Shown here: in pieces, positions 40,487-45,942 of the stretch
Numbering within the stretch: position 1 is the first letter of the stretch
Layout: every line of letters starts with the position of its first letter
Source: Gammaproteobacteria bacterium
GTDB lineage: Bacteria; Pseudomonadota; Gammaproteobacteria; Nevskiales; Nevskiaceae
Assembly: GCA_022599775.1 (NCBI GenBank)
Contig: JAHZLQ010000023.1
Span: 1 to 64,000, forward strand
Direction: 5' to 3'
DNA: 64,000 nucleotides
Notes under the pieces: generated by a model
Seen by the model: only the letters and a program-made list of their open reading frames with translations
What the model was told of the DNA's origin: nothing
Database searches by the model: none
Made by a program: the position numbers and the translations under genes

Positions 40487-43400
40487 TCACTGAAAATCGC
40501 GTGAATGCGTCGGCAGGGCACCCAGCCATTCGCTGACATCACGAAAGCGTTCGACCACGATGTGAATCACACCGCTGACATTCTGCAGGCGTCCGCGTGC
40601 CAGCAACAGACGCCCGCCCAGAACCGCCTCGCGCTGTTCGTCCAGCAGTTGCACACGAATTACCAGATTGTGGAATCCCGTCTCGTCCTCCAGCGTCATG
40701 AACATCGTGCCCTTGGCGGTCTGCGGCCGCTGGCGGTTGATGACGAGTCCGCCGACGCGCACGGCAACACCGTCCGGCAACTGCGGCAATTCTTCGGCGC
40801 GGCGCAGCCGCAGGCGATCCATGCGCGGGCGCAGCAAGGCCACCGGATGGCGCCGAAGCGTCAGCCCGGTGGCCTCGTAGTCGGCCACGATATCCTCGCC
40901 TTCACGCGGCACCCGCGAGGCAAGCGGCGCTTCGGGTGCGGCATGTCCGGCCAGCAGGCCCGGCAGTCGCTGCACGCCGAGCGCGGCCCAGCGCGCGGCG
41001 TGGCGGTGACCGGCGATCGGGCGCAGCGCGTCCGCATCGGCCAGCGCGCGTCGCTCCCGCGCGTTCAAGGCGGCGCGATGACAGAGATCGTCGACATCGC
41101 TGAACGCCCGGCTCGTCCGCGCCAGTTCGATACGTCGCGCCGCCGCCTCGTTGAATCCCTTGACCAGTGCCAGGCCCAGGCGCAGCGCCGGTGCGCCCCC
41201 TGTTGCGGGTTCCAGGCCGGACTCCCACAGACTGGCGCTCACAGCCACGGGGCGCACCTCCACGCCGACACGCCTCGCCTCACGCACCAGTTGCGCCGGC
41301 GCGTAGAAGCCCATCGGCTGGCTGTTGAGCAGGCCGGCAAAGAACGCCGCCGGGTGATGGCACTTCAGCCACGACGAGGCATAGGCCAGCAGCGCGAAAC
41401 TGGCGGCATGCGATTCTGGGAATCCGTAGTCGCCGAAACCCAGAATCATCTCGAAGATACGTCTGGCGAAATCCGGGGTATAGCCGTTCTGCGCCATGCC
41501 CGCGTACAGGCGATCGCGGATCGGCTCCAGACCGCCCTTGTGCTTCCACGCGGCCATCGAGCGTCGCACCTGGTCGGCTTCGCCGGGCGTGAAATTGCCG
41601 GCCACCATGGCGATTTCGATTACCTGTTCCTGGAACAGCGGCACGCCCAGGGTGCGGCTCAGCACCGCCTCCAGTTCGGGGCGCTCATAGCGCGGTGCCT
41701 CCTTGCCTTCGCGGCGCCGCAGATAGGGGTGCACCATGCCGCCCTGGATCGGCCCCGGCCGCACGATCGATACCTGGATCACGAGATCGTAGTAGTTCTT
41801 GGGCTTGAGCCGCGGCAGCATCGACATCTGCGCGCGCGATTCGATCTGGAATACACCCACCGTTTCGGCGCGCTGGATCATCGCGTACGTGGCCTCATCA
41901 CCTTCCGGAATGTCTTTCAGCGCCAGGGGCGCGCCGCGCCAAGCCGAGATCATTTCCAGGCTGCGCCGGATCGCCGAGAGCATGCCCAGGGCCAGCACGT
42001 CGACCTTGAGCAGGCCCAGGGCTTCGAGATCGTCCTTGTCCCACTGAATGATGGTGCGATCCGGCATGGCTGCGTTCTCGACCGGCACCAGTCCATGCAG
42101 CGGCGTCTCTGAAATGACGAAACCGCCGACGTGCTGGGACAGGTGTCTGGGCATGTCGATCAGTTGCCGGACCATGTCGATCCACAGGCGCACACGCGGC
42201 GCCTCGGCGTCGATGCCGAGCACCCGCAGGCGATCGCTCAGCTGTTCCGGCGTATCCCACCAGGCCAGTGATTTGGCCATGCGGTCGATCAGGTCCGGCG
42301 ACTGGCCCAGCGCGCGACCGACATCGCGAACCGCCATGCGCGGACGGTAGTGAATCACCGTGGCGGCGATCGCGGCACGGTCACGGCCATATTTTTCGTA
42401 GATGTACTGAATCACCTCCTCGCGGCGCTGGTGCTCGAAGTCCACATCGATGTCCGGCGGCTCCTTGCGTTCGCGCGACATGAAGCGCGCGAACAACATG
42501 CGCGAGCGATCCGGGTCGACTTCGGTGATACCGAGGACGAAACAGACCAGCGAATTGGCGGCGCTGCCACGACCCTGGCACAGAATTCCCCGGCTGCGTG
42601 CCCAGCGCACCACATCCTCAACCGTCAGGAAGAAATGCTCGCACTGTCGCTCCGCAATCAGCGCCAGTTCGTCCTCGATACCTTGGCGATTCCGCGCACT
42701 GACGCCTTCGGGCCAGCGGTTCGACATGCCCTGTTCGCACAGGTGGCGCAGCCAACTGATGGAGGTGTGTCCTGCGCCGACGACCTCGTGCGGATACCGG
42801 TAGTGCAGCTGATCGAGCGTGAATCCGCAGCGGTTCGCAATGTTCAGACTCTCGGCGATCCAGCCCGATGGATACAGGGATTGCAGCGCAGGCAGAGTGC
42901 GCAGATGACGTTCGCCATTCGGGAACAAGACCTCACCGCATTCAGCCACCGGCTTTCCGACACGGATCGCCGTCATCAGGTCCTGCAACTGGCGACGCGC
43001 GCGCACATGCATGTGTACGTCGCCAGCGGCGACGATGCGAAGTCCGCTGGACTGTGAAAGCGCAAGCAGGCGTTCGATGCGACGCGGCTCGTCACCGTCG
43101 CGATGCAGTTCGGCGGCGATCCGGGCGCGGCCACCAAACGTCGAGCCGATCCAGTCCGCGTGCGTCTCGTCCTCCGGAATCCACAGCACCAGCGCCCGCG
43201 TCGCCAATTCCTCGACATCCACCCGATGCAGGCGATAGCCGCCCTTGCGCGTCGCGCGCCGGCCGCGCGTGATCAAGGCGCAGAGCTCGCTGTAGGCGCC
43301 GTGATCGGGCGCCAGCAGCACCAGTTTCGGACCGTCCCGCAATCGGATCTCGGTGCCGACGATCAGCTTGAGCCCGGCGTCCCTGGCCGCAACATGCGCC

Positions 43401-43546
43401 CGCACGACGCCCGCCATCGAACATTCGTCGGTGACCGCCAGCGCCGCGTAGCCCAGCGCCGATGCACGCGCCACCAGCTCTTCGGCATGCGAAGCGCCGC
43501 GCTGGAACGTAAAACAGGAGAGGCAGTGAAGTTCGGCGTAGGACAA
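40487..43546 (-). CDS. dnaE2: Error-prone DNA polymerase DnaE2
   Basis: About 1019 aa. PHP domain (YAELHCLSCFTFQRGASH), catalytic palm with PPDIDVDFEHQRR carrying the three Asp, FQEQVIEIAMVAGNFTPGEAD, and a C-terminal OB fold (MFMTLEDETGFHNLVI). Part of the ImuB-DnaE2 SOS mutasome. TTG at 43546 puts the start 2 residues before YAELHC as in relatives; ATG at 43612 would overlap the toxin gene by 59 nt. A toxin-antitoxin pair lies between it and imuB. Confidence 0.9.
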   Translation of the reverse strand: MSYAELHCLSCFTFQRGASHAEELVARASALGYAALAVTDECSMAGVVRAHVAARDAGLKLIVGTEIRLRDGPKLVLLAPDHGAYSELCALITRGRRATRKGGYRLHRVDVEELATRALVLWIPEDETHADWIGSTFGGRARIAAELHRDGDEPRRIERLLALSQSSGLRIVAAGDVHMHVRARRQLQDLMTAIRVGKPVAECGEVLFPNGERHLRTLPALQSLYPSGWIAESLNIANRCGFTLDQLHYRYPHEVVGAGHTSISWLRHLCEQGMSNRWPEGVSARNRQGIEDELALIAERQCEHFFLTVEDVVRWARSRGILCQGRGSAANSLVCFVLGITEVDPDRSRMLFARFMSRERKEPPDIDVDFEHQRREEVIQYIYEKYGRDRAAIAATVIHYRPRMAVRDVGRALGQSPDLIDRMAKSLAWWDTPEQLSDRLRVLGIDAEAPRVRLWIDMVRQLIDMPRHLSQHVGGFVISETPLHGLVPVENAAMPDRTIIQWDKDDLEALGLLKVDVLALGMLSAIRRSLEMISAWRGAPLALKDIPEGDEATYAMIQRAETVGVFQIESRAQMSMLPRLKPKNYYDLVIQVSIVRPGPIQGGMVHPYLRRREGKEAPRYERPELEAVLSRTLGVPLFQEQVIEIAMVAGNFTPGEADQVRRSMAAWKHKGGLEPIRDRLYAGMAQNGYTPDFARRIFEMILGFGDYGFPESHAASFALLAYASSWLKCHHPAAFFAGLLNSQPMGFYAPAQLVREARRVGVEVRPVAVSASLWESGLEPATGGAPALRLGLALVKGFNEAAARRIELARTSRAFSDVDDLCHRAALNARERRALADADALRPIAGHRHAARWAALGVQRLPGLLAGHAAPEAPLASRVPREGEDIVADYEATGLTLRRHPVALLRPRMDRLRLRRAEELPQLPDGVAVRVGGLVINRQRPQTAKGTMFMTLEDETGFHNLVIRVQLLDEQREAVLGGRLLLARGRLQNVSGVIHIVVERFRDVSEWLGALPTHSRDFQ

Positions 43547-43553
43547 TGCGGTG

Positions 43554-43814
43554 CTAGCTGAGCAACTTGTCGTAGTCCGCGTGACTACCGATCCAGAACC
43601 ACAAAACGCCATCCGCTACCGGAGTGCCCAGGGCGCGATAGCGCGCTCCTACGCGAACGCTGCGAAATCGCCCGCCGGCAACGGCCTTGAACTGCAGGGA
43701 AGGATGCGCTGGATTCTGTTTGAGTAGATCGAAATTACGTCGCGCCAGCATCTGGATGGGTACCGGCATGGAATCGAAGCACTGCCAGAATTTTGCGGAG
43801 GCAAAATGCCTCAA
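43554..43814 (-). CDS. RelE/ParE-like toxin
   Basis: 86 aa. Small basic protein of the RelE/HigB fold: FKAVAGGRFRSVRVGARYRAL then VLWFWIGSHADYDKLL, the typical beta-strand and C-terminal ending of this family. TTG start at 43814 overlaps the antitoxin stop (TTGA). Expected activity is mRNA cleavage at the ribosome or another cell-arresting target. Located in the middle of the imuB-dnaE2 cassette, 7 bp from the preferred dnaE2 start. Confidence 0.78.
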   Translation of the reverse strand: MRHFASAKFWQCFDSMPVPIQMLARRNFDLLKQNPAHPSLQFKAVAGGRFRSVRVGARYRALGTPVADGVLWFWIGSHADYDKLLS

Positions 43815-44011
43815 ATTTCACGAACCTTGCCACCACGGTATTCGGCAAGTGCCTCCTCGGCCAGGGCATCCAGCTTTCCGGAACTCGCATCGGCCTCCAG
43901 CCGCGAGTCCCATCTCGCCGAATCGAATTGGGCGAACCAGCGACGAAGCTCGGCCAAGTCTCCCGGCGGCAAGCGTTCGATCGCCTTTTCGATGTCGTCT
44001 ACGGTACTCAT
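43811..44011 (-). CDS. Antitoxin partner of the RelE-like toxin
   Basis: 66 aa, starting MSTVDDIEKAIERLPPGDLA. It is mostly helical and acidic, with DALAEEALAEYRGGKVREI at the C-terminus, a pattern of small antitoxins upstream of RelE/ParE toxins. No DNA-binding domain is evident. ATG 44011 is preferred over 44077, with CGAGGG upstream. Co-translated with the toxin. Confidence 0.75.
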   Translation of the reverse strand: MSTVDDIEKAIERLPPGDLAELRRWFAQFDSARWDSRLEADASSGKLDALAEEALAEYRGGKVREI

Positions 44012-44089
44012 GGCGATAGCCCTCGAACGGATCGACGCAAGCATACCAAGCTCACTTTTTCCAAGGGAAGCCGTCAACCGCGCCGCAAT

Positions 44090-45526
44090 TCACGCCCACA
44101 AGCCCTGGAGAAACCAGGCGTCGTTGGCGCGATCCCGATACACCCACAGACGCATGCCTGGGGCAGCTTCGGCAACGTAGTAGTCACGCGAAACATCGTT
44201 GCTGTCCCACCAGCCGGACTCGATACGTTCGGCCGGCCCCAGCCCGGACGGTGCGCGTGACAGCGGGCGCGGCGGATCGAGCAGCCAGGTCGGGCGCGCC
44301 ATGGCGCGTGGCGGCATTGCGACCGACGGTCCGGGTTCGGCCTGCGGCGGCAGTGCCTGCCAGCTTTTCTCGGGACGCGGATCGGCGACCAGGCCCAGAT
44401 TCCAGACCGCTTCCGCGCCGAGGCGCGCGATCAGTTTCTCCACGGTGTCGCGCCAGGCCTGGGCCTGCTGCTGACGACCATCGAACAGATCGAATTGGAC
44501 CACGTCCGGCGCCGCGAACCGCTCGGCCACGAGTTCGATCCCACGCACCGGCGCCTCCAGCTTGAAGCGTTCCAGACGCTCACGCAGCAGCAAACCCAGT
44601 TGTCCGGCATCGCTCGTGGACGTCGCCAGCTGCAGTTCGAGCACGCTGTCGGGACGCCGCGGATGCGCCAGCCGCAGCGACAGCTGCTGCACGCCGGTAT
44701 CGCGCGCGCGCAGGTAGTGCTGCAATTCTCCGAGTAGACGCCGCAGCGGAAACTGCAGACCTTCGGTATGAGTGATCTCGCCGAACAGCTCGAAACGACG
44801 CCGATAGACCGGCGGCGGTTGCAGCGCGCGGCGCGGATCCGGGCGGCGGCCGCTGAGACGGGACAGGTAGTCGACCAGCCCGGCATCGAAGCGATGCGCC
44901 AGCACGTCCGATGGCAGCGCCAGCAGTTCGCCGAGACGCTCGAAACCACTGCCACGCAGGGCCGCGATGCGATCAGGCATCAACGGCAATCGGGCCAGCG
45001 GCACGGCATCGAGCCAGCGCCGGTGTTCGGGCGCGTCTTTCAAAACCGCGCCGTCACCACCGACCGCCGCCAGCAAGGCCGCCTCCGGCGTCGAAGCCAC
45101 GCCGCGCGCCAGCGGCATGGACCAGGCCTGGGCCCGTTCCAGATCCAGTTGCGCGAGCAGTCCGTCCAGCCCGCCGAACAGTCTCAGACTGGCCCCGATC
45201 TCGACCCAGACGAGCGGCAGCGGCACGCCATAGTCCCAGTTCGACTCGCGGGTCTCCAGGCTCACCGGCTGACCGAAACGATAGGCCCAATAGGCCAGAT
45301 GCCGGAGCATCTCGGCTTCCGCCTCGCGCTCGCGAGGATGCGCTTCGATGCCCGGATACAGCGCCTGCACCTGGGCCAGATCGGTGCCGGGCGTCACGCG
45401 CTCGTCGGTACAGGCCAGCACCCAGCGGCGGCTGCCACGACGCTCGGTGACGGCGAGCGTGCGGCCGGGCGGCGGCATCAAGGCCGCCAGGGACAATCGC
45501 GTGGGATGCAGACACAGCCACAGCAT
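44090..45526 (-). CDS. imuB: ImuB, Y-family polymerase-like mutasome protein
   Basis: 478 aa. Y-family fold that starts MLWLCLHPTRLSLAAL and lacks the catalytic acidic residues of DinB, as expected for ImuB. The beta-clamp-binding motif QFDLFD is present near residue 350 and the C-terminus has SRDYYVAEAAPGMRLWVYRD. It links DnaE2 to the clamp during SOS mutagenesis. Its start overlaps the VOC gene stop. No imuA is found upstream. Confidence 0.9.
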   Translation of the reverse strand: MLWLCLHPTRLSLAALMPPPGRTLAVTERRGSRRWVLACTDERVTPGTDLAQVQALYPGIEAHPREREAEAEMLRHLAYWAYRFGQPVSLETRESNWDYGVPLPLVWVEIGASLRLFGGLDGLLAQLDLERAQAWSMPLARGVASTPEAALLAAVGGDGAVLKDAPEHRRWLDAVPLARLPLMPDRIAALRGSGFERLGELLALPSDVLAHRFDAGLVDYLSRLSGRRPDPRRALQPPPVYRRRFELFGEITHTEGLQFPLRRLLGELQHYLRARDTGVQQLSLRLAHPRRPDSVLELQLATSTSDAGQLGLLLRERLERFKLEAPVRGIELVAERFAAPDVVQFDLFDGRQQQAQAWRDTVEKLIARLGAEAVWNLGLVADPRPEKSWQALPPQAEPGPSVAMPPRAMARPTWLLDPPRPLSRAPSGLGPAERIESGWWDSNDVSRDYYVAEAAPGMRLWVYRDRANDAWFLQGLWA

Positions 45527-45942
45527 CAGCCGGGATTCGGTTCGGCGATTTCGTCATAGCCGCGCCCCAGCATCGTAAGCAGACAGAAGCCATGCCCGAA
45601 CGGGTCGGCGAGATGCGCGATACGGCCCCAGACATGGGTTTGAATCGTGTCTTCGAGCACGGCGCCAGCGGCCACCGCGCGGGCTACGGCGGCGTCGACG
45701 TCGTCGACCTGGAAATCGAGATGCACCGGCGTCCAGTGGCGCGCGTAGTCGCGTGACTGGCTGATGCGACTGGCGGCCGGGCTGCCCGCCGGTTTGACCA
45801 GCAAAAACACCGGGCAGGCGGCACCGCGAAGTTCGACGCCACTGGAGCCGAAGCGCCGGCAGACACTCAGGCCGAGCGCCTGCAAATAGAAGGCTTCGGC
45901 CCGGCCGAGATCGTCGACATCGATATTGACGAGCAGCTTCAT
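45526..45942 (-). CDS. VOC/glyoxalase superfamily protein
   Basis: 138 aa with paired beta-alpha-beta modules: VNIDVDDLGRAEAFYLQALG, then VHLDFQVDDVDAAVARA, and DPFGHGFCLLTMLGRGY near the end. It is a metal-dependent lyase or dioxygenase-like fold of unknown substrate. Overlaps imuB by 1 nt, so it is probably the first gene of the same transcript, an odd place for a mutasome. Confidence 0.8.
   Translation of the reverse strand: MKLLVNIDVDDLGRAEAFYLQALGLSVCRRFGSSGVELRGAACPVFLLVKPAGSPAASRISQSRDYARHWTPVHLDFQVDDVDAAVARAVAAGAVLEDTIQTHVWGRIAHLADPFGHGFCLLTMLGRGYDEIAEPNPG

Follow-up and report, generated by a model that had tools for sequence, protein, structure and literature searches.

A toxin–antitoxin pair between imuB and dnaE2 in a gammaproteobacterium with a separately encoded imuA

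Organization of the locus

The window, that is, the whole stretch of 64,000 nucleotides analyzed in this work, carries on its minus strand a tightly spaced run of genes in the order VOC, imuB, antitoxin, RelE-fold toxin and dnaE2. The features of this run are the following:

45526–45942, minus strand: VOC/glyoxalase-like protein of 138 aa, encoded at the head of the run; Pfam Glyoxalase_6, 5.5e-19
44090–45526, minus strand: imuB (478 aa), catalytically inactive Y-family homolog; 32–55% identity to imuB of relatives, QFDLF motif
44040–44048, minus strand: TGG-TATGCT, an extended -10-like element ahead of the antitoxin gene and candidate promoter of the pair; read from the sequence
43811–44011, minus strand: antitoxin (66 aa); homolog located just 5' of the toxin at 79 of 80 loci
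43554–43814, minus strand: RelE/ParE-superfamily toxin (86 aa, TTG start); PF24732 ParE_like, 1.2e-7, and fold model
43547–44089, minus strand: putative inserted segment, from imuB stop to dnaE2 start, about 543 nt; relatives have a 4-nt overlap or short spacing
40487–43546, minus strand: dnaE2 (imuC), 1019 aa from TTG; PRK05672, 1422 bits; 57–67% identity to relatives

The VOC stop and the imuB start overlap in TGATG, the antitoxin starts 78 nt past the imuB stop, the TTG start of the toxin shares 4 nt with the antitoxin stop, and the TTG of dnaE2 (43546) lies 7 nt past the toxin stop. The order, strand and tight joints described in a first-pass annotation of this DNA were thus borne out, and gene order and gene identities also confirmed its reading that a toxin–antitoxin (TA) pair interrupts the imuB-dnaE2 cassette. 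The same annotation placed the VOC gene where imuA would be expected. Indeed, imuA is missing from that position, but the VOC gene is no replacement for it, as imuA sits elsewhere in the genome (see below). The notion that the VOC gene might be a diverged imuA, or a relic of it, was ruled out by the Glyoxalase_6 match, which denotes a different fold family.

ImuB and DnaE2 are intact

Homologs of ImuB were found in 50 of the 61 genomes searched (this one included), nearly all of them adjoining imuA. The Pfam match of the protein encoded here is weak (IMS_C, 0.002); it shows full-length homology to the ImuB of relatives, and its clamp-type (β-clamp-like) motif, QFDLF, aligns with their conserved Q-x-DLF. 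DnaE2 matches the NCBIfam error-prone polymerase model PRK05672 well above its cut-off (1422 versus 939 bits), and its polymerase core is intact, with both PDIDVDF and KVDVLAL present. As judged from the sequence, the TTG at 43546 is most likely its true start, because the residues that follow, SYAELHC, are those with which DnaE2 begins in relatives; an alternative in-frame ATG is found at 43612, within the toxin gene. Neither ImuB nor DnaE2 is damaged by the intervening segment, and the context of the imuB stop is conserved.

imuA is encoded at another site

The first-pass annotation regarded the cassette as normally contiguous, and the relatives agree: in other members of the family and the order, imuA directly precedes imuB in a single (lexA2-)imuA-imuB-dnaE2 run, and in several of them the end of a LexA-like gene lies ahead of imuA. 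The annotation also reported that there was no imuA, which holds for the locus but not for the genome, since a profile search recovered a full imuA on contig C42 (G000, 140607-141140; NF033429, 205.8 bits, cut-off 150). This orphan imuA is a solitary gene flanked by a lipase-like gene and, in convergent orientation, a fatty-acid CoA ligase gene (both names assigned by eye from translations). The sister species has an intact imuA, 98.5% identical, at the corresponding site, in a region of about 10 kb over which the two genomes are 95% identical. Given that imuA is alone on another contig and at the same site in the sister, the cassette must be regarded as split. The genome contains only one LexA and only one S24 peptidase which, together with the synteny of imuA in the sister, indicates that lexA2 is gone and that imuA probably left the cassette before the two species diverged. 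The gene positions are as read, and the direction of change in the location of imuA is inferred from parsimony.

Therefore, the contiguous operon that is common, but not obligatory, for the ImuA-ImuB-DnaE2 mutasome is not found here, as imuA lies apart and the TA pair separates imuB from dnaE2. Membership in a mutasome is compatible with this layout, because split cassettes are known (PMC3901139, PMC10421592): Mycobacterium has imuA'-imuB apart from dnaE2, and Myxococcus xanthus has imuA-imuB apart from dnaE2 (PMC10421592, PMC3901139, PMC12288472; original description, as cited in PMC10421592, in Erill 2006).

The toxin–antitoxin pair is an ordinary stand-alone module

The AlphaFold2 model of the toxin has a pLDDT of 95.6, and a fold search with it retrieved RelE, YafQ and YoeB at Z scores of 10–11. 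These relatives came from the fold search alone, as a search of PDB sequences with the toxin profile returned nothing relevant; the antitoxin had no match in Pfam. The pair shares with RelBE, DinJ-YafQ and YefM-YoeB the toxin fold (Z about 11), an antitoxin gene that comes first and overlapping frames. In contrast with those systems, its toxin is only ~10–20% identical to solved toxins and belongs to PF24732, and its antitoxin lacks a Pfam model. The predicted fold of the toxin makes cleavage of ribosome-bound mRNA, as by RelE and YafQ, its most likely activity.

A search of public genomes yielded 80 relatives of the toxin, spread over many phyla, and at 79 of these loci an antitoxin gene lies directly upstream, mostly with a stop/start overlap. 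None of the 80 has imu genes nearby within the fetched DNA. Within the order, the toxin is matched in 4 of 85 genomes, and only one of the 85, the genome under study, carries the pair between imuB and dnaE2. A sample of the class gave matches in 19 of 274 genomes (this one included), with no imu gene near the other fetched matches. Overall, linkage to imu was seen at no other locus among about 100 sampled copies. Since the pair is free-standing across phyla and not linked to imu in any other copy sampled, a cassette-specific function is unsupported. The literature searches returned no paper whose title or abstract deals with a TA pair placed within an imu cassette. Two other origins were considered and set aside. 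As a component of a defense system, the pair gave no convincing PADLOC match (a Cas11e hit of 0.004 over 32 residues was taken as spurious), and, as to a plasmid origin, there were three distant plasmid relatives only, all in cyanobacteria.

The leaders of homologous units suggest that such a module brings its own promoter. A -10-like hexamer lies between -60 and -15 of the antitoxin start in 36 of 73 units, compared to 6 of 73 in a control region further upstream and to 18.9 expected by shuffling. The copy in the window has an extended -10, TGG-TATGCT (44048–44040), which is weak and lacks a -35, and a full sigma-70 consensus was not found upstream of the antitoxin; the element is thus a candidate promoter in this copy.

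The imuB/dnaE2 joint tolerates insertions

A 4-nt overlap (ATGA or GTGA, in the forms GCATGAGC or GCGTGAGC) often joins the stop of imuB to the start of dnaE2 in relatives, and it is followed by SYAELHC, the same residues found after the TTG here. The GC content of the TA pair is 58.7%, compared to 65.3% for the 64-kb window, a modest departure, as about 4% of windows are equally low. Neither a target-site duplication nor the end of a mobile element was found around the insert.

Other genes occupy the same joint in related genera. One genus has a VOC/glyoxalase gene there (L007 944-1282, L009 3105-3443), ~29% identical to the VOC gene located upstream of imuB in the window. Another has an antisense peroxiredoxin gene (L025 2938-3495, L022 3035-3616), and a third a cation-exporter-like gene, in a gap of 1288 nt (L032). 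Three related genera thus have other genes in this joint, which tolerates insertions; its interruption is neither rare nor specific to toxins.

LexA boxes

The first-pass annotation proposed that the toxin might come under SOS control and suggested looking for a LexA site upstream of 45942. No box of the CTGT-N8-ACAG type precedes the VOC-imuB run, where the top-scoring 16-mer within 260 nt is a background match, whereas lexA of this same genome carries a perfect box, CTGTTCAATTGAACAG. SOS control of the pair is therefore unsupported, as the distribution of the pair described above also argues.

Two other sequences were noted. The best LexA-like 16-mer nearby (43502–43517, one mismatch) falls within dnaE2, at its 5' end, and is probably fortuitous. 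A palindrome, CTTTTCATATGAAAAG (L087 6521-6536), with the shape of a degenerate LexA box, precedes the start of the orphan imuA by ~25 nt and is kept in the sister species; its reading as a LexA-type box is only suggestive.

The sister species has lost the cassette

In the sister species (G001, contig C36; L089 12101-13260) the VOC gene is decayed, and residues 1–77 of ImuB are joined to residues 254–450 of DnaE2. The 3' end of dnaE2, some 45 nt, is found on another contig (L111, around 2996), beside an unrelated gene, and neither the toxin nor the TA pair was found in that genome. This picture of a wrecked cassette carries some risk of assembly error, as it involves a contig break. The imuB and dnaE2 fragments shared by both species show a dN/dS of about 0.11–0.14, indicating that constraint acted on both genes until recently. 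As the sister lost the region, the TA pair could in principle predate the split of the two species. The gene next to the dnaE2 tail is PhoX-like, by eye, and the broken contig ends in foreign sequence that might be an insertion element, 46 nt of it recurring once elsewhere in the sister genome.

A proposed history of the locus

These observations can be integrated by assuming a single insertion of an ordinary stand-alone TA module into an imu cassette that was already split and still intact, a history that we consider probable. In this scheme, an ancestral lexA2-imuA-imuB-dnaE2 operon would have been reorganized within this genus, losing lexA2, with imuA ending alone at another chromosomal site and imuB-dnaE2 coming to lie behind the VOC gene. 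Within the lineage of this genome, a two-gene type II unit with a RelE/ParE-fold toxin would then have entered the former overlap of imuB stop and dnaE2 start. The antitoxin should neutralize the toxin and, together with it, repress the promoter of the pair. Assembly of the mutasome would still be possible, because imuA, imuB and dnaE2 are all full length in this genome and keep their conserved motifs; ImuA would come from its own locus, with ImuB as the clamp-binding scaffold and DnaE2 as the polymerase. Translation of dnaE2, once coupled to that of imuB, would have to re-initiate downstream of the toxin gene, on a transcript that would probably stem in part from the TA promoter. The arrangement has the appearance of a chance event of insertion, observed in a single genome: the pair would be a passenger whose placement is tolerated, and no evidence of selection to serve the cassette was seen. 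The course of events in the sister species is in keeping with a cassette that this genus can do without.

The same arrangement might amount to a rewiring, in which dnaE2 became the third cistron of an autoregulated TA operon, its synthesis following antitoxin breakdown (under stress or translation arrest) and being uncoupled from imuA and LexA. We regard this as doubtful. If dnaE2 were driven in this way, growth arrest, and not DNA damage, would be what governs mutagenesis, and the locus would be a natural setting in which to ask whether the mutasome depends on coupled SOS expression. In any other case, it provides a clean example of TA modules settling in operon joints and leaving the genes unbroken, as well as of a stepwise dismantling of imu by lexA2 loss, separation of imuA, insertion and, in the sister, loss.

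Simple decay, with imuB-dnaE2 as a dying remnant and the TA pair and VOC gene as debris, would account for the separated imuA, the lost lexA2 and the truncated and fused fragments of the sister. It is nevertheless improbable, given the full-length genes with their conserved motifs and the constraint recorded by the dN/dS values. Nor does the pair seem to act as an addiction module guarding imuB-dnaE2 from deletion, a stabilizing role also raised in the first-pass annotation: the cassette is intact here, with the pair, and destroyed in the sister, without a copy of it, but this is a comparison of one case against one, the cassette is stable in many relatives that lack the pair, and the loss in the sister took the whole region, with which a copy of the pair may also have gone; we consider such a role quite improbable and the claim unsupported. 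Finally, that the pair has a working role within the cassette, co-transcribed with imuB-dnaE2 under SOS control and halting growth or translation during lesion bypass, is very unlikely, because the single strand, tight spacing and overlapping joints that would suggest it are countered by the missing LexA box before the VOC gene, by the confinement of the arrangement to a single genome of the order with none of the other 80 copies linked to imu, and by the unrelated genes that occupy the same joint in relatives.

Comparison with known imu cassettes

The locus can be set beside the proteobacterial lexA2-imuA-imuB-dnaE2 (imuABC) cassette, which in Pseudomonas putida is transcribed as a single transcript (PMC3901139), and whose contiguous homologs occur in the family and order of this host. 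As in that cassette, imuB and dnaE2 lie on one strand and in the usual order; here, in contrast, lexA2 is absent, imuA is at another locus, a VOC gene stands in front and the TA pair separates imuB from dnaE2. With the split cassettes of Mycobacterium and Myxococcus it shares the separate encoding of members of one mutasome, but the separated member is imuA, and imuB stays with dnaE2, interrupted by the TA pair.
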